Assembly (NCBI GenBank): GCA_016928995.1 | Contig: JAFGJS010000079.1 | Coordinates: forward strand, 1-35,808 | From: Candidatus Sumerlaeota bacterium | GTDB taxonomy: Bacteria; Sumerlaeota; Sumerlaeia; JAFGJS01 | Reading direction: 5' to 3' | Length of the DNA: 35,808 nt | Shown: positions 300-10,286 of the stretch, in pieces | Position numbering within the stretch: position 1 is the first letter of the stretch | How the letters are laid out: the number at the start of each line of letters is the position of its first letter | Translations under genes and position numbers: made by a program | Notes under the pieces: generated by a model | What the model was told of the DNA's origin: nothing | Seen by the model: the letters and a program-made list of their open reading frames with translations, nothing else | Database searches by the model: none

Positions 300-3200
300 T
301 TAGTCATTAAAGAAGTGCACCACGACCGGAACGGCCTCGTCTCCCAAATCCGTGTCAGGACGCGATTGGGACTCGATGGTAATATTGGTGATGTGTTGAT
401 AGGTGTTCAGTCCAAGCATAATCTTGGTGACCTTGAGTTTGGTTTTGGCGGAGACATAGAAAGTCCGATTAGTCCCGAGGTTGGTGGTGACTTTGATCTT
501 CGCATATCCCTGGCCGCGCGAGTTGGGATTAAGCACATCGAAATACACAATGTTTGAGTACGGCACATATACATTCATCGTTTTTTCGAAAATCGTATCT
601 GGCGCGACGGGATCCAGGGAATAACTCCCGCCGTTATTCACCTCGATCGACAATTCGGAGTCGTCGTAGTTCACGTAATCCACGCGTAAGGCATAGTCGC
701 CGATGACGCCGGATAGCGACTGCGATGACAGCAGCTGCGACAGGTTAATCGAATATCCGTCGACCTGGTGCTCGAATTTATAAGCGATGCCATAGGGCTC
801 CGCAACTTGCGAGGCAAGAATGGGGCCGTATGATCGATAGAGATACACTTCAACATAATCGTTTTCAGGATTCTGAGATGGGAACGCAAGGTCGAGATAT
901 GTCATGCCTTTGGGGAAGAAATAGGATTCCAGCATTTCCTTCGTATCATCTTGAAACATCGCCTCCAACCTGGAGGAGACGCCGGTCAGATTCTCGCGAT
1001 TGTCGGGAGACATGACATAGTGGAGCGGATAGCCTGTGCCTGTCGTGCCTTCCACGAGTCTATCGTTCTCGAAGATACTATCATCATTCAATCTCTCCCA
1101 CGTATCCCATACCATGCTGGCTCCGCGAATGCCATATCGTTTGAAAAGTTCGGTTTGAATCCATAGCGCATCTTCGACTTTTTCGAAGAGGTCATCGGAA
1201 TCAAAGTAGTATTTCGATTTAGGCTCTGAAACGGTCTCTTCGTCCTTTAAAGCGCCCATAATGTGGAGTTCGCTGCTCCATGCGGGCTTGGCGAGTCCGA
1301 GACCGTCATGGCGCATCGAGCGCATCGCTTTCTGGAGATAGGGTTCACGGCGATCCGCGAATTCTTCGAGATATTCATCTGGATTTGTATAGGGTGCAGC
1401 TGCGGTTTCACCGTCCGCCCAGGGATAACGATCGCGGTTGAAGTGAACTCCTGTGCAATCGAAATTTGAGGCGTTAAAGGCGAACGGGCTTAAGGGTACA
1501 CGCGCTTCTGTGATTGTCTCAACAGGGCCTGCGCCGCCGGGGTATTGTGTCCAATCATAATGGTATTCTACGGCATTATATCGATCGGGGGAAGGGCCGT
1601 AATCCGTGTCGCCAACCGGACGCCTTTGGCGGTAATTGCTGAATACCGAGTTGCCGACGAGAGGGGCTGTCTCACCGGCGTATGGGGCTATAATCGCCGC
1701 TTTGCATGCATTCGCCCATCGAATGGTCAGAGCGTCGGCAAGCTGCTCTTTGCCCTCCGGTGTTGTTGTGTCATAAGGCGTTGAAGTTCCAGCCAGAGTC
1801 ACCTGTGATACAATTCCGTCAAATGGCGGTGTCGAAACACAACGAGCATAGTGGTCAGCATTGGATGAATTATCATAACCGGAATAATGGGGAGGGTCGA
1901 AAGGATTTGATTCATTATTTCCTTTTGTGGTGAACTTGGCTTCGACCATGGGGTTGACCATGAATTTCAATCGAGGTTTGCTTTGTTGCGCGCATATCGC
2001 GACTTCCTCAGTGCGGAATCGAGCCATAAATTCTCCCCAGAAAAGGGTGAACTGGTTCATGTTATACTTATCGGCGTAATCATATAAATTAGAGATAGTA
2101 TCGTTTCCGAACTTATCACCCGGGAGCAAGTATATAAAGTTCTGATACTCCAGATCGACCAAACTTTCCGTGGCTCGAACATGGGTGCCAAAACCTGTGC
2201 ATGGAGTCCCGGTATCATGCCATTCAGTGCATTCGCTATCGTTAGCGTGAGGTGCGAAATATGCTTGCGGAACCTCCCAAGCGCTCAGCTCCACGACGAT
2301 ATCACGGCTATTTGCCTTGATCATAAATTTGACCATATTATCAATATAGTTGATATTGAATGTTTCGCCAGCCGGAGGATTCTCTGTCACCGCCTTGGCG
2401 TCAACATATACCCGGATTAGATTGTAGCCTTCCGTTTGACACCGATCTAGAAAATCATCGATGTAGCCGCTGCTATCCTTCTCGGTATAGTAAGAGTTTC
2501 TGAAATTCACAGCGGTATGATGACCGTCTGCTTCGTCATCTTCGATATGACACCAGCTATAACCCAACGGGATGAATTCATTTCCATCGAGGGTGAAGGT
2601 GGCAGGCATGATTTTCTGAACGAACATGTCGCTGCCGCCGCCGCTGTAGCTGCCGCTTGCGGAGAGTCCAGGGACAACTTCATAACCGCTCGTGGCGTAC
2701 CCCGTCATCACAGCATGTCCATAATCGACCACATCGAGATCCAAACCATAGGAGTCCGAAGGAAGATTATCGGAACCATAGGTGTTGATTGTGATTAGTT
2801 CTCCATCGGGTGTGAATTGTCCGTGAAGCGATTTATGTTGGGTGTAGGAGACACTATTCTGGACCTTCGTGATCGTGGCGCTTCCGTATACATGGGGATA
2901 GCCGTCGGGATCCAGGTCAATCGCCCACCCGCCGTCATCATAGCATGCGATGGTATCGGTGCCATCATAGCCGAACTGAGTCGACCATTGCTTATCGAGA
3001 TCGGCGTCGTATTTGATCAGAATAAACTCCTCGCTCATCGCTTCGCCGTATGAATGAGCAGTGGCTCCTGTCGCTCGCGGAGAATTTGATTGACCCGTAA
3101 TGTAGATATCCCTGTTCCCCTCATCGTCGATATTAAGAGCGATGTCGCGCGCGTAATCGAAATAACCGGCGCTGCCGTTGGTGTCACTCTCATCACTGTT

Positions 3201-4169
3201 GTTATAATTGTTGAGATTGATAGACTTTATGTAAAATGTAGAATAAAGATTATAGTATGTGCCGTGATCCATGTAAATATAGTTATTGTTGATGGGCATG
3301 TAGATCTTATTGTTCGATGTATCAACGACCATCTTGCCGGGAATGTTGTCTGTCGTGTCGCCGATGTAGTCGCATTTCACAATATTCTCATCGCCGCCGC
3401 CAGGAATTCCATCCCCTAGAGTCAGGCGACAGATAAAACTATTATATCCCGTGGATACATTATAATAGCTATGCCCAGATGATGAATAATAAGCAAGATT
3501 ATACGATGTTGAGGCGCCAAGAATATGGAGTGTTCCATCGCTGCCGAGGAAGCAATCGACTGCGAAGTCGTCTCCCGCTCCACCGTAGAGATATCTTGCC
3601 GATGCGTTTGGATTGTTGGCATAGTTTCCACTGGCATCTCTCAGTAAATAATACTTTATGATTATATTAGAAGTATTTTCAGTCGGGGAGCTTGGGTAGT
3701 TATATGGCGCCCAAGCGCTAAACTGACTTACGGGAGATGTGGAATGACCAATGACGAAAAGAAATTCATATCCATAGTAGTTCACAAAAGAGAGGCTGAC
3801 AAACTCTTCATCTCCATCCATCGATATGATATCCTCCCATACGTGTTCATTTCCTACGCCGTCGTACCATTTGCATAGATTCCCGTCATTGTCATATTTC
3901 GCGAGGAAGGCATCTTTGCCTTTGTTGTTGACGCTGTTGTCTTTAAAACCCGCGACGAATGTGGAGTATGAAACGACATTGTTATGCAATTCTTTGTAGG
4001 CATAAACAGCGTTGCCGTGATCATCGCCGGAGGTTCCATAATAGCTGGCCCAGGACGGAATGTTCGTGCCGAGTTGCGCGAAGGCTTCTGCCGTCAGCGC
4101 GACGAGAATTCCCAGCGCCGCGAGAGTCGTGATGAATTGACGCGGCCTTGATGTTCTTGGTGTGTTCAT
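300..4169 (-). CDS. large secreted protein: beta-propeller-like N half plus glycoside-hydrolase-like C half
   Basis: The 1289-residue product begins with a clear signal peptide (basic N-region, hydrophobic core about 12-28, cleavage near AFAQ). Residues about 35-520 are rich in Gly, Asp, Tyr and Asn and contain repeated segments of the type YGTSGDDHGNAVY, YLYGGAGDDFAVD and FGYDGTDTIACYDD, like SBBP-type propeller repeats. Residues about 535-1140 resemble a TIM-barrel glycoside hydrolase such as a cellulase-like fold (NLIRVYVDA, VELSAWEVPQ, YNAVEYHYDWTQYP, KPAWSSELH), with a beta-sandwich tail after that. Specific catalytic residues cannot be assigned with confidence. The ATG has a good ribosome binding site (GAGGA, 8-9 nt upstream), and an intrinsic terminator follows. 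The gene is lower in GC than its neighbours, suggesting a different evolutionary rate or transfer. Probably an exported polysaccharide-binding or -degrading enzyme; the substrate is unknown. Confidence 0.85.
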   Translation of the reverse strand: MNTPRTSRPRQFITTLAALGILVALTAEAFAQLGTNIPSWASYYGTSGDDHGNAVYAYKELHNNVVSYSTFVAGFKDNSVNNKGKDAFLAKYDNDGNLCKWYDGVGNEHVWEDIISMDGDEEFVSLSFVNYYGYEFLFVIGHSTSPVSQFSAWAPYNYPSSPTENTSNIIIKYYLLRDASGNYANNPNASARYLYGGAGDDFAVDCFLGSDGTLHILGASTSYNLAYYSSSGHSYYNVSTGYNSFICRLTLGDGIPGGGDENIVKCDYIGDTTDNIPGKMVVDTSNNKIYMPINNNYIYMDHGTYYNLYSTFYIKSINLNNYNNSDESDTNGSAGYFDYARDIALNIDDEGNRDIYITGQSNSPRATGATAHSYGEAMSEEFILIKYDADLDKQWSTQFGYDGTDTIACYDDGGWAIDLDPDGYPHVYGSATITKVQNSVSYTQHKSLHGQFTPDGELITINTYGSDNLPSDSYGLDLDVVDYGHAVMTGYATSGYEVVPGLSASGSYSGGGSDMFVQKIMPATFTLDGNEFIPLGYSWCHIEDDEADGHHTAVNFRNSYYTEKDSSGYIDDFLDRCQTEGYNLIRVYVDAKAVTENPPAGETFNINYIDNMVKFMIKANSRDIVVELSAWEVPQAYFAPHANDSECTEWHDTGTPCTGFGTHVRATESLVDLEYQNFIYLLPGDKFGNDTISNLYDYADKYNMNQFTLFWGEFMARFRTEEVAICAQQSKPRLKFMVNPMVEAKFTTKGNNESNPFDPPHYSGYDNSSNADHYARCVSTPPFDGIVSQVTLAGTSTPYDTTTPEGKEQLADALTIRWANACKAAIIAPYAGETAPLVGNSVFSNYRQRRPVGDTDYGPSPDRYNAVEYHYDWTQYPGGAGPVETITEARVPLSPFAFNASNFDCTGVHFNRDRYPWADGETAAAPYTNPDEYLEEFADRREPYLQKAMRSMRHDGLGLAKPAWSSELHIMGALKDEETVSEPKSKYYFDSDDLFEKVEDALWIQTELFKRYGIRGASMVWDTWERLNDDSIFENDRLVEGTTGTGYPLHYVMSPDNRENLTGVSSRLEAMFQDDTKEMLESYFFPKGMTYLDLAFPSQNPENDYVEVYLYRSYGPILASQVAEPYGIAYKFEHQVDGYSINLSQLLSSQSLSGVIGDYALRVDYVNYDDSELSIEVNNGGSYSLDPVAPDTIFEKTMNVYVPYSNIVYFDVLNPNSRGQGYAKIKVTTNLGTNRTFYVSAKTKLKVTKIMLGLNTYQHITNITIESQSRPDTDLGDEAVPVVVHFFND

Positions 4170-4661: not shown

Positions 4662-5267
4662 TTACAGCGTCCGGCGGTTCGTCACGTTGCTGAAGGGGGA
4701 GGCGCCGGTGCTGTTGATGGCTTTGACGGCAAAGAAGTATTGCTTGCCTTCCTCCAGGCCGTCCACGGTGAAGCGGCTCGACGTGGGATTGCCCACGGGG
4801 CGCATTTCCGTGGTGCTGGCCGTTTCGCCGATGTACACCGTGTAGAACGTGGCGTTGGCCGACGGCTCCCAGTTGAGCGCGATGGCGTCCGCCGAGACTT
4901 CCGACGCTTCCAATCCGATCGGCGCGGCGGGAACGGGACGCTTGGCCGGCTCTTTGCGGCTGGTGTGGCCGAACGCGGCCAGGATCGGCTTGAACAGCGC
5001 CTTGGCCACGTCGCGGATGGCGATGTATTAGTCCTTGGCCGGGCCTTCCACCAGTTCCCGCAGTTCGGCGCGCAGCTGCGACAAGGTGGCTTCGACCGCC
5101 TCCACCTGCGCCAATTTGGTTTGAATGGCGTCGGCGGTGACGGTCACACCCTCGGCGGACGGCGCGTTGGACGGCCAGTCCGATCCGGCCTGCGTGATGC
5201 CCTGCGCCATGTTGCGCAGATCGTTTTCCATGATCAGCGGGTTCGTGCTCGGTCGATTGATTCCCAT
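4662..5267 (-). pseudogene. fibronectin type III protein interrupted by one in-frame TAA
   Basis: Two minus-strand reading frames, 5267-5028 (79 codons, beginning MGINRPSTNPLIMENDL) and 5027-4662, lie in the same frame and are separated only by the TAA at 5030-5028. Reading through joins a helical N-terminal segment (VEATLSQLRAELRELVEG) to a helical linker (YIAIRDVAKALFKPIL) and then a single FN3 domain (PIGLEASEVSADAIALNW to the NRRTL end). The layout, a helical N-half then FN3, is that of small FN3 proteins common in environmental bacteria. One C-to-T change of a CAA codon would create the stop. Recent inactivation, a sequencing error or genuine readthrough are all possible. The downstream piece has a GTG at 5009 but no good ribosome binding site, so separate translation is less likely. 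Confidence 0.7.
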
Positions 5268-5426
5268 GTTTCCATTTTCCTTTCGTGAGATTTAAAGCCC
5301 GAATCATTCGCGGCATACTGCATTCGACGCCGGAATCCTGAATAGGTTTCTCAATTTCTTATAAAAAAACCCCGGTTCCGGTAAAACCAAGGCTAATTCC
5401 AATGATTTCAGCGCATTAAGCACATG

Positions 5427-5447
5427 AAAAAAAGCACGCCGGCGTGC
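5427..5447 (-). terminator. minus-strand intrinsic terminator beside the 22-bp array
   Basis: GCACGCCGGCGTGC (5434-5447) is a perfect palindrome. On the minus strand it is followed at once by seven T (5433-5427). The stem is short (five pairs with a CCGG loop) but GC-only at its base. It sits 6 bp outside the last unit of the array at 5453-5716, so it would end a minus-strand transcript that crossed the array. No minus-strand gene ends here, because the FN3-type gene starts further left. Confidence 0.55.
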
Positions 5448-5452
5448 GTCAG

Positions 5453-5716
5453 GAGTGGTCCAGTCAAATAGAATGACCGCTCAACCTAAATCGATATACC
5501 ACTCCGGACAAATAGTCGGAGTACTCCGAATAAATAGTGTGACCAGTTCGACTAAATAGCTGGACCAGTCCGCATATATAGACTGACCGCTCAATATATA
5601 TAGTACGGCCACTTCAAACAAATATAAAGACCGCTCCGAATAGAACGTTTGAGCGCTCCAGCTCAATATCCGGACTGTTCCGGTCAAATTGTATGACCGT
5701 TCGAAAAAATAGAAAC
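5453..5716 (+). repeat. array of twelve phased degenerate 22-bp units
   Basis: The stretch divides without any insertion or deletion into twelve 22-bp units starting at 5453, 5475, 5497, 5519, 5541, 5563, 5585, 5607, 5629, 5651, 5673 and 5695. Column by column, positions 1-4 are mostly GACC, position 7 is always T, position 8 is nearly always C, and positions 13-19 read close to TAAATAG. Positions 10-12 and the last three bases vary freely. The period is not a multiple of three, so it is not coding, and there are no identical repeats with spacers as in CRISPR. The 22-bp step is about two helical turns, placing all cores on one face of the DNA. The remaining flanks (5268-5426, 5717-5882) hold no gene I can support. 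Confidence 0.9.
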
Positions 5717-5882
5717 ACCTTTTCAGCGAAGGCGATTCGGCGCACGCCTGCCGTCCTGCGGCCGATGACGTCCTCGCAGGATTGGGCGGCGTCTGAATAT
5801 GCGAACCTGAATCTGTGCGTCCGCGTCTGCGAATCGTCAGTTTTTATTTGACCCTGCGACTTGTTTCTTTTTGAGTGCGGAT

Positions 5883-7562
5883 ATGCCATCATCAATTCCA
5901 CTTAACGATTCCAAAGCATTCTTTCGTTCACCGGCCGGGCTGCTGCTGATTACGCTTGTGCTGATCGCGTGCCTGCGGCTTTACGGCGCGGCATACCACT
6001 CGCTCTGGCAGGACGAGGCAGTCTGCGTCTACAAGGCGCAGGACGGCTTCGCCCGCACCGTGGAGATTCTGCGCCAGGAAAATCAGCCGCCGCTGTACCA
6101 CTTCACGCTGCACATCTGGATGCGTCTCTTCGGCGACGATCCGGGGCCGTTGCGCATGCTTTCGTTCCTCTGCGGATTCCTGCAGATCCTGCTTATCGCC
6201 TGGACCGCCCGCGTGCTCTTCAACGGCCGCACAGCGTGGTGGGCCTTGCTGATCGCCGCCGTGTCGCCCGCGCTGATCGAATTCTCTCAGGAAATCACTC
6301 CATACGCGCTATACTGGCTGCTGAATTCCGCCGCGTGCCTATGTTTTGTGATCGGCATGGAGAAATCGGGACGACGCACAGCCGAGGGCGGCTGCGCCAG
6401 ATCAAGCTGGGCGCGATGGACGCTGTACGCCGTGCTGCGCGCCGCGTCGATTTACATGCATTACTTCGGTCTGTTCTTCCTGATGGCCGAAGGACTCTGG
6501 GCCTTGATCCAATTCTTCGGCCGCCGCCGCGCGTTTTTCGCCTGGTGTGTGTCGCTTGCGGGCATCCTGCTGTTCTTCGCGCCGTGGCTGCCGATTTTTC
6601 TCGAGCAGCGCCGCCGCGTCGCGGGTGGATTCTGGGTGCAGAGCATGGCGCTCACCGATCCCAAGAGCGTGATCCTGCCCTGGGCCAACATGCTGCGCCA
6701 ATGGGTTATGTGGTTCCCGCAGGTCCAGCACAAGCCCTGGATTTACATCACTCCCGCGGCGCTTCTGCTTTTTCTCGGATTGGCTGCCTGGGCGATTTTT
6801 CGCGGGGGGCGTCTGCTGTTCGCAAAGAAGCTCTTCAGCACAGCCGAGGGTGAATCTGCCACATCAGAAGCAGTCGAGGCGCGCGGCATTGCGCTTTGCT
6901 TGATCTACTTCTTACTGCCGCCGGTCACGGTCACCGTTCTCGCCCTGCGTGGTTCCGCGCCGTTCACGCCCAAGTATCTCCTGGGCTCCGCGCCGTTTTT
7001 CTACATCCTCGTCGCGCACGGCGTTGGGCTCATCTCTCAGAATGCCTTGCGCAGAACCTTGGGAGGCGTCTGCGTCGGACTCACGCTCATCGGCGCGTTG
7101 CTCTGCGTCGCCGCGCCGGATTACCGGCCGCCGGAGTTCAATCGCGCCGGCAGGCAAATTCAGGCGGCATGGCAAGACGGCGATCTGGCCGTTGTGTATG
7201 ACAGCGACACGTTCGCCGGTATGCATTATTACCTGCGCGCGCTGCATCCCGAGATCATCTGGCATTGCCCTCCGGATTATGAGGCGCCGTTCTGGCAGGG
7301 GCTGGAGGGCTACGATCAGTCGAAAATCACGCCGGACATCGCCCCCTGGATCGCCTCGCGGCCGCGCATCTGGATCTGCATGCGGCTGCATAACTCACAG
7401 CCTTGGGCGAAGGACTACGTGGTGTCATTGCGCGAGCAAATCCCCGAAGCGGCGCTCAGCGACGCGGGTTATCGCGTCGTCAGCCATCGCATTTACCTCG
7501 GCGTCGAGGTCTGCGAACTGGTCGCTGATCAAGACGCGACGCATCGCCGCGCTCCAAATTGA
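5883..7562 (+). CDS. GT-C family (GT39/PMT-like) membrane glycosyltransferase
   Basis: The product is 559 residues from the ATG at 5883; a TTG at 5871 is in frame but neither has a strong ribosome binding site. After one N-terminal membrane segment comes a periplasmic loop with LWQDEAV and later ENQPPLYHFTLHIWMRLFG, the acidic DE and PPLY motifs of GT-C transferases that use polyprenyl-phosphate sugars. About ten further hydrophobic segments follow, then a soluble C-terminal domain (DLAVVYDSDTFAGMHYYLRA). Such enzymes glycosylate proteins or envelope lipids at the outer face of the inner membrane. It lies downstream of the 22-bp array, which reads toward it, and converges with the TauE-type gene 3 bp away. 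Acceptor and sugar are unknown. Confidence 0.85.
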   Translation: MPSSIPLNDSKAFFRSPAGLLLITLVLIACLRLYGAAYHSLWQDEAVCVYKAQDGFARTVEILRQENQPPLYHFTLHIWMRLFGDDPGPLRMLSFLCGFLQILLIAWTARVLFNGRTAWWALLIAAVSPALIEFSQEITPYALYWLLNSAACLCFVIGMEKSGRRTAEGGCARSSWARWTLYAVLRAASIYMHYFGLFFLMAEGLWALIQFFGRRRAFFAWCVSLAGILLFFAPWLPIFLEQRRRVAGGFWVQSMALTDPKSVILPWANMLRQWVMWFPQVQHKPWIYITPAALLLFLGLAAWAIFRGGRLLFAKKLFSTAEGESATSEAVEARGIALCLIYFLLPPVTVTVLALRGSAPFTPKYLLGSAPFFYILVAHGVGLISQNALRRTLGGVCVGLTLIGALLCVAAPDYRPPEFNRAGRQIQAAWQDGDLAVVYDSDTFAGMHYYLRALHPEIIWHCPPDYEAPFWQGLEGYDQSKITPDIAPWIASRPRIWICMRLHNSQPWAKDYVVSLREQIPEAALSDAGYRVVSHRIYLGVEVCELVADQDATHRRAPN

Positions 7563-8705: not shown

Positions 8706-10286
8706 ATGCGAAAATTCAAGGATCTGATGCTCGATGTCTGGCGCGAAGTCTCCCAGCACCTGGAAATCGGCCAATCGATTTCCGCTATCGCCAGACTCCT
8801 GGAACGCGAACTGCCGCTGAAACAGCTCTGCCTGCGTCAATTGCTGGAGCAGGAATGCTGTCTGATCGATCTGGCGCAATGGCGAGTCGGCAACGATGCG
8901 CCGCCGCCGGCGCGGACGACGCTGACACATACGCAGGTCAATCGGATCCTAAAATGGCGTCAGGATTCCAAGGCCATCGTTCATGCGCCTGGCGAACGAC
9001 TGCATCCATTGCTGCGATTAACAGCGCCGGAACATGCATCATCCGCGGCAGCAATGCTTGCATCGGCCTTCACCACGTCTCAGCATGAGCATGGTGTATT
9101 GATCGCCGTGGCCAAGCCGAAGGCGCGTTTCACACAAAAACATGCGCAGTTTTTCCAGATGCTTTCCAGGGCGGTGCTGGCGGCGATAGAAAACGACAGC
9201 CGTCTGCGCGAGCTGGAGCAGCTCCGCAAGGCTGCCGAGGCCGACCGGCAATCGCTGCTCCGGCGTTTGGGCCGCGATGAACTCGCCGAGGACGCCATCG
9301 TCGGCGCAAACACCGGCTTGCAGGAGGCGATGCGCCGTGTGGAACTCGTGGCGCAGTCCGGCGCTCCCGCGCTCATCCTGGGCGAAAGCGGATCGGGCAA
9401 GGAACTGGCCGCCCGGGCGATCCATCGCCGTTCCGCACGCTGCGATGGTCCGTTCGTCCGGGTCAATTGCGGCGCCATCCCGCCGGAGTTGATCGACTCT
9501 CAGCTCTTTGGTCATGAAAAAGGCGCCTTCACCGGCGCTGTCGATCAACGGCAGGGCTGGTTTGAACGCGCGGATGGCGGAACCCTGTTTCTGGATGAAA
9601 TCGGCGATCTGCCACTGGCCGCGCAAGTGCGATTGCTGCTCGTGCTGCAAGACGGATGGCTCGAGCGCGTCGGCGGACACAAGCCGATTCAGGTCGATGT
9701 GCGGATCGTCGCTGCGACCCACAGCGATCTGCCCGCGATGGTCGGCGAGGGCAAATTCCGCGAAGACTTGTGGTATCGCATCGCTGTGTTTCCCATCATC
9801 CTGCCGCCTTTACGCGAGCGCAAAGACGACGTCCCCGAACTCGCCCGGCACTTCGCCAGGCGAGCGGCGCGGCGATTCGGTCTGCGTCCGGTCATGCCGG
9901 CGGAGGATGACATCCAGCTTTTACGACAATATGACTGGCCGGGAAACGTGCGGGAATTTTCCGCCGTGATCGACCGCGCCGCTATCCTGGGCGACGGCGT
10001 CCGGCTGGAAATCGCCAAGGCGCTGGGCATGAGCCCCAGGAAACTCAATGAAGCCGCCGTTGAAATGGCGTCATCCATTGACGCTCAAATTCCTGCCACC
10101 TTGACGCAGAGTTTTCCTTCTCTCGAACAAGCGACACGAGAGCACATCGAGCGAGCCTTGCAGCTGACCAACGGCCGCGTGGAAGGTTTTTTTGGCGCCG
10201 CGCGACTGTTGCGCGTCAATCCCAACACTCTGCGCTCAAAGATGCGCAAGCTCAGTCTTGACCGAACTGCTTATGCCCAAACGTGA
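8706..10286 (+). CDS. sigma-54-dependent transcriptional activator with GAF-like N-domain
   Basis: The 526-residue protein has three parts. Residues 1-185 look like a GAF-type sensor domain (not a response-regulator receiver). Residues about 195-425 form the AAA+ core, with Walker A GESGSGKE (226-233), GAFTGA (273-278, the sigma-54 contact loop), Walker [10 protein letters not shown] (about 294-302), an arginine-bearing FREDLWYRI segment and WPGNVREF (411-418). A C-terminal Fis-type HTH follows (about 485-518, [20 protein letters not shown]). All ATPase motifs are intact, so it should open sigma-54 promoters in response to a ligand sensed by the GAF domain. It is divergent from the TauE/SafE gene, whose promoter is sigma-54-like. 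ATG 8706 has AAAGGA 8 nt upstream. Confidence 0.93.

Follow-up and report, generated by a model that had tools for sequence, protein, structure and literature searches.

The window analysed here, a stretch of 35,808 nucleotides which represents the entire contig C122 of a draft genome of Candidatus Sumerlaeota bacterium (4.55 Mb in 161 contigs, 92% complete), raises the question why a run of short, strongly diverged repeats in the gap between two divergent genes keeps a strict 22-bp phase. We see about an even chance that this array represents a platform of cooperative sites for a local DNA-binding protein, which is placed in a divergent regulatory region.

The array consists of twelve contiguous head-to-tail units of 22 bp (264 bp in total, positions 5453 to 5716, plus strand) with the consensus GACCRSTCCRNNYAAATAGNNN, and no additional units flank it at 5431 or 5717. 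Its self-identity amounts to 0.52-0.53 at lag 22 and to 0.52 at lag 44, as compared to values of at most about 0.33 at the remaining lags from 5 to 59, and the identity of 0.19 at lag 11 indicates that there is no 11-bp sub-repeat. When the array was shuffled 2000 times under preservation of dinucleotides, the best identity over lags 5 to 60 averaged 0.318 and never exceeded 0.377, and the 22-bp phase is therefore not due to chance. The twelve phased units described in the initial annotation are thus confirmed, as is the phase itself in the comparison with shuffled sequence which had been named there as a possible refutation. Tandem Repeats Finder reports just a fragment of 2.9 units, since the divergence of the copies is too high. 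The postulated lack of indels applies to the spacing between the units, but not to the interior of the last one (5695 to 5716, plus strand), where the AAATAG block is directly read 1 bp nearer to the unit start. Since 22 bp correspond to 2.1 turns at 10.5 bp per turn, the suggested exposure of all sites on one DNA face would strictly require a helix with about 11 bp per turn. As judged from the degenerate and contiguous units, which are separated by a 3-bp linker only and lack unique spacers, the array is not a CRISPR, as had already been proposed.

The refined unit reads GA(C/G)Y-R(S/T)TC-CRnnYAAATAG-nnn, with C, G or T occurring at position 6. T7 is invariant in all 12 units, followed by G1, A2, A14 and A16 (11 of 12 each), C8 and T17 (10 each), and C3, C4, C9 and G19 (9 each), with G as the only alternative at position 3 and T at position 4. 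Only purines (G or A) are found at position 5, A and G share position 10 equally (six units each), and position 13 contains T or C plus one A. Positions 11, 21 and 22 carry zero information and positions 12 and 20 little, so that the earlier view of positions 10-12 and 20-22 as free applies fully to the former three, but has to be abandoned for the A/G-restricted position 10. The first 8 bp of the unit, GASYRSTC, form a weak dyad about their centre, whose complementarity is 0.54, while column-permuted arrays reach a mean best value of 0.44 (p 0.022); in unit 4, the dyad is a perfect 14-bp palindrome (TCGGAGTACTCCGA).

A view on the genomic context shows that the array is intergenic, with the start of a divergent gene about 170-190 bp away on either side. 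It is noncoding, given that its 22-bp period is not divisible by 3 and that a matching gene is absent. The left neighbour is the remnant of a gene for a small fibronectin-III-domain protein (4662 to 5267, minus strand), which contains an in-frame TAA at 5030-5028 and is probably a pseudogene. Beyond the TAA, an out-of-frame fragment resembles the tail of another gene. The right neighbour codes for a PMT_2-type glycosyltransferase (5871 to 7562, plus strand, with a possible alternative ATG start at 5886) which has distant relatives only. At the array itself, the GC content changes from about 0.48 to 0.62. Further to the left, a protein of 1289 amino acids with a signal-peptide-like start is encoded at 300 to 4169 (minus strand), in a stretch of low GC content (0.47-0.50) relative to most of the window; a Pfam search with this protein gave no match. 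A sigma-54 promoter as target of the sigma-54 activator encoded at 8706 to 10286 was rejected, with no site found near the array and fewer sites in the window than expected by chance, and a GC-skew turning point considered as replication landmark turned out to be a local effect only.

Searches for the motif beyond this locus show that the array is a single-locus orphan in its own genome and among relatives at class level, the nearest ones available for comparison. A profile of two adjacent units recovered this array alone from the whole genome, plus chance-level matches; the same profile retrieved nothing convincing from 38 other genomes of the class and, under stricter filters, no array from 385 other genomes, which include the class relatives. 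A second copy was likewise absent from blastn searches of the own genome and the other genomes. Across the genome, single sites show no enrichment (131/133 as compared to 145/168 in reversed-pattern controls), and the counts obtained with a position weight matrix are at or below those of permuted matrices. Neither a regulon nor conservation can therefore be claimed as support, and the further target sites or conserved orthologous promoters that may be expected of an operator array were not found in these searches. The initial annotation had named precisely this outcome, a motif occurring only here and not in relatives, as evidence against its reading as protein-site array; this reading retains the phase, the column conservation, the weak dyad and the divergent intergenic position on its side. 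Note that a purely local regulator would give the same lack of further sites.

A de novo scan of 1.94 Mb (43% of the genome) revealed further phased degenerate intergenic arrays with motifs unlike that of the window array, which shows that arrays with a two-turn phase occur repeatedly in this genome. The strongest one (C80:1134-1511, L182) consists of 18 units of 21 bp (CTTCATTTGCCTCATTTGAAG), and its clear dyad (CATTTGAAGCTTCAAATG) spans the unit boundary and reaches a complementarity of 0.68 versus 0.47 in permuted arrays; the similarity of its units falls strongly with distance (Mantel r -0.57), as in ordinary tandem duplication. The 21-bp motif occurs also at C30:6599-6869 (L221), at C93:47005-47046 (L224) and weakly at C73:57179-57257, in addition in another family of the class (G006:C142:939-1101, L216), with a single occurrence in a more distant genome (G356:C16:3511-3548, L247). 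The array in G006 is located just upstream of a gene resembling the M subunit of type I restriction-modification systems. Like the window array, the 21-bp family is intergenic, degenerate and strictly phased at two turns with a dyad per unit, but it differs by its unrelated motif, its occurrence at several loci and in a second bacterial family, and the gradient observed in the C80 array. Another short array (L107:17497-17620, G000:C128), which sits in the gap ahead of a long ORF, contains CCCTTRTARGG-like boxes at distances of 22, 22, 22, 23 and 23 bp, as read from the sequence. Repeats of other types were also noticed, namely perfect TGCGTTAT repeats running into a contig end (L192 11430-11518, G000:C98) and hexamer-type GAGCAA/CGACTT repeats recurring in intergenic gaps (L139 17389-17436, L160 10290-10337, L123 101-142). 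The other phased arrays cut both ways, fitting either a shared protein-platform design or a common tendency towards amplification of short units, and they weaken both the uniqueness of the window array and its purely functional interpretation. A design of the lineage in which long intergenic arrays of degenerate dyads at two turns serve regulatory or chromosome-organising roles, each locus or family having its own motif and its own binder and the window array being a single-locus case, appears doubtful to us.

The array might alternatively be a decayed minisatellite without function, derived from an amplified 22-bp unit whose copies have drifted, with a column pattern reflecting mutational bias and a small sample; we consider this unlikely, but deserving serious weight. 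The restriction of the motif to one locus without conservation in the class, the decayed left neighbour, the GC shift and the capacity of the genome to produce other phased tandem arrays, including a 21-bp one with a duplication gradient, all agree with such an origin, and the single locus, the lack of enriched single sites, the absence of the motif from the class relatives, the decayed neighbour and the other arrays speak at the same time against the platform. The divergence pattern within the array points in the other direction. Column conservation is more uneven than an equal-rate star phylogeny gives (variance test, p ~0.001), which bears out the column-concentrated conservation noticed initially, and fixed and free columns occur side by side, with identities of about 0.7 in the conserved and about 0.34 (near background) in the free columns at nearly all unit distances. 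The identity between units is flat with distance (Mantel r -0.09, p 0.26, with the limited power of 12 units). Thus, neither of the patterns predicted for a neutral minisatellite, neighbours more alike than distant units and equal divergence across columns, is observed. Moreover, an identity to the consensus of 0.69 (31% divergence) translates to about 105 substitutions in 264 bp, which should have been accompanied by five or more indels if at least 5% of the mutations were indels, yet the unit boundaries are unmoved. Taken together, the uneven columns, the flat distance profile and the unmoved boundaries are three tests that point to selection, while the differences between the units are rich in transitions (columns 4, 5, 8, 10 and 13) and leave mutational bias some room. 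The fixed helical register in combination with column-specific conservation and the lack of neighbour similarity fit an array of protein sites as found in operators, and the array probably lines up docking sites for a DNA-binding protein.

A further alternative, which we rate as rather improbable, is a noncoding RNA transcribed from the minus strand leftward through the array and ending at a terminator-like hairpin (GCACGCCGGCGTGC) followed by TTTTTTT (5447-5434, minus strand), which is located 5 bp from the array and behind no same-strand ORF; a second, weaker hairpin with a T-run lies beyond it (5368 to 5394, minus strand). By analogy to sponges of the CsrB type, an RNA with twelve copies of CUAUUUAUUCGGASYGGUC could titrate an RNA-binding protein. 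The main support comes from the hairpin itself: 19 of the 27 noncoding hairpins of this type in 1.94 Mb of the genome directly follow a same-strand ORF and therefore look like real terminators, and this one belongs to the 8 orphans. However, it could instead stop readthrough from the convergent TauE gene, no sigma-70-like promoter and no Rfam match were found for the proposed RNA, and tRNA is the only Rfam RNA in the contig pieces that carry the remaining orphan terminators. Folding is favourable for the minus strand (z -5.0), but the fold energy of the array is matched by 13 of 150 column-shuffled arrays, or by 25 of 150 if the terminator is included. The fold therefore follows from the DNA motif, and RNA structure was dismissed as a selected feature beyond the motif. 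We regard it as highly improbable that the array belongs to a replicon or mobile element, i.e. as an iteron array, a plasmid-type centromere or a transposon end with tandem transposase sites. Tandem iterons of 17-22 bp exist, and together with the F-plasmid centromere they show that such layouts occur; the GC shift at the array would also agree. Against this, no rep, par or transposase family was detected among the scanned window proteins, and the partition-type role suggested initially loses ground with the lack of a ParA/ParB-like gene among them. Phage records yielded no blastn match to the array, and the single match in plasmid records lies within a gene and is at chance level. A second transposon end or spaced site clusters did not rise above permuted matrices, and the contig bears genes for a tRNA and for threonyl-tRNA synthetase. 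A search for TnsA gave no match, and its control was likewise empty. Pattern scans of viral contigs gave an 11-bp perfect tandem repeat, a chance match or no match at all; the first pattern used there fails to match the window array itself and represents a loose test only.

For the reading as protein platform, comparison with known motifs did not match the repeats to any of them. In LytTR operators, 9-bp direct repeats are paired at a distance of about 21-22 bp, but these operators comprise only two repeats of another sequence, and a LytTR regulator was rejected after no LytTR match was obtained in the 92%-complete assembly, with positive controls in 5 genomes. None of the scanned window proteins matched Rrf2, and the initial hint at Rrf2-type operators is unsupported. 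Response-regulator multi-site arrays (ArcA, PhoB, OmpR) resemble the array in being degenerate direct repeats in helix phase, and in ArcA sites, the centres of added repeats are 11 or 22 bp apart (PMC3798270); however, the number of repeats in ArcA sites is 2-5, at a core spacing of 11 bp, whereas the array contains 12 units at 22 bp without an 11-bp sub-repeat. BldC multimerises cooperatively, head to tail, on direct repeats that are imperfect and vary in number (PMC5859096), but these repeats are about 9 bp long with the consensus AATTXXXX(C), different in length and sequence from the 22-bp unit. The F-plasmid centromere parS/sopC shares with the array the number of twelve tandem units and the internal inverted-repeat motifs (PMC6238139), but its units are 43-bp plasmid-partition repeats, as compared to degenerate 22-bp units on an apparently chromosomal contig without a par gene in the window. 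The array may work like the multi-site operators of ArcA or BldC, an analogy in the mode of action and not a claim of membership in either family.

In the proposed platform, twelve equivalent sites of about 19 bp, two helical turns apart, would carry a cooperative protein assembly between the gene for the PMT_2-type glycosyltransferase and the divergent fibronectin-III gene remnant. Each unit may be read as two blocks, the weak dyad GASYRSTC and the AT-rich YAAATAG one turn further on, with a 3-bp free linker separating the units. The 22-bp spacing would let adjacent protomers touch, and through these contacts the assembly might activate or silence the flanking promoters; protein binding, cooperativity and action on these promoters are what we infer from the layout of the array. 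If it is bound by a protein, the array would be, for a pair of bacterial genes, an operator or nucleoprotein platform of unusual length. If it is functionless, it would be a tandem array that keeps perfect spacing despite a drift of about one third of its bases, and would serve as a warning against taking phase as function.
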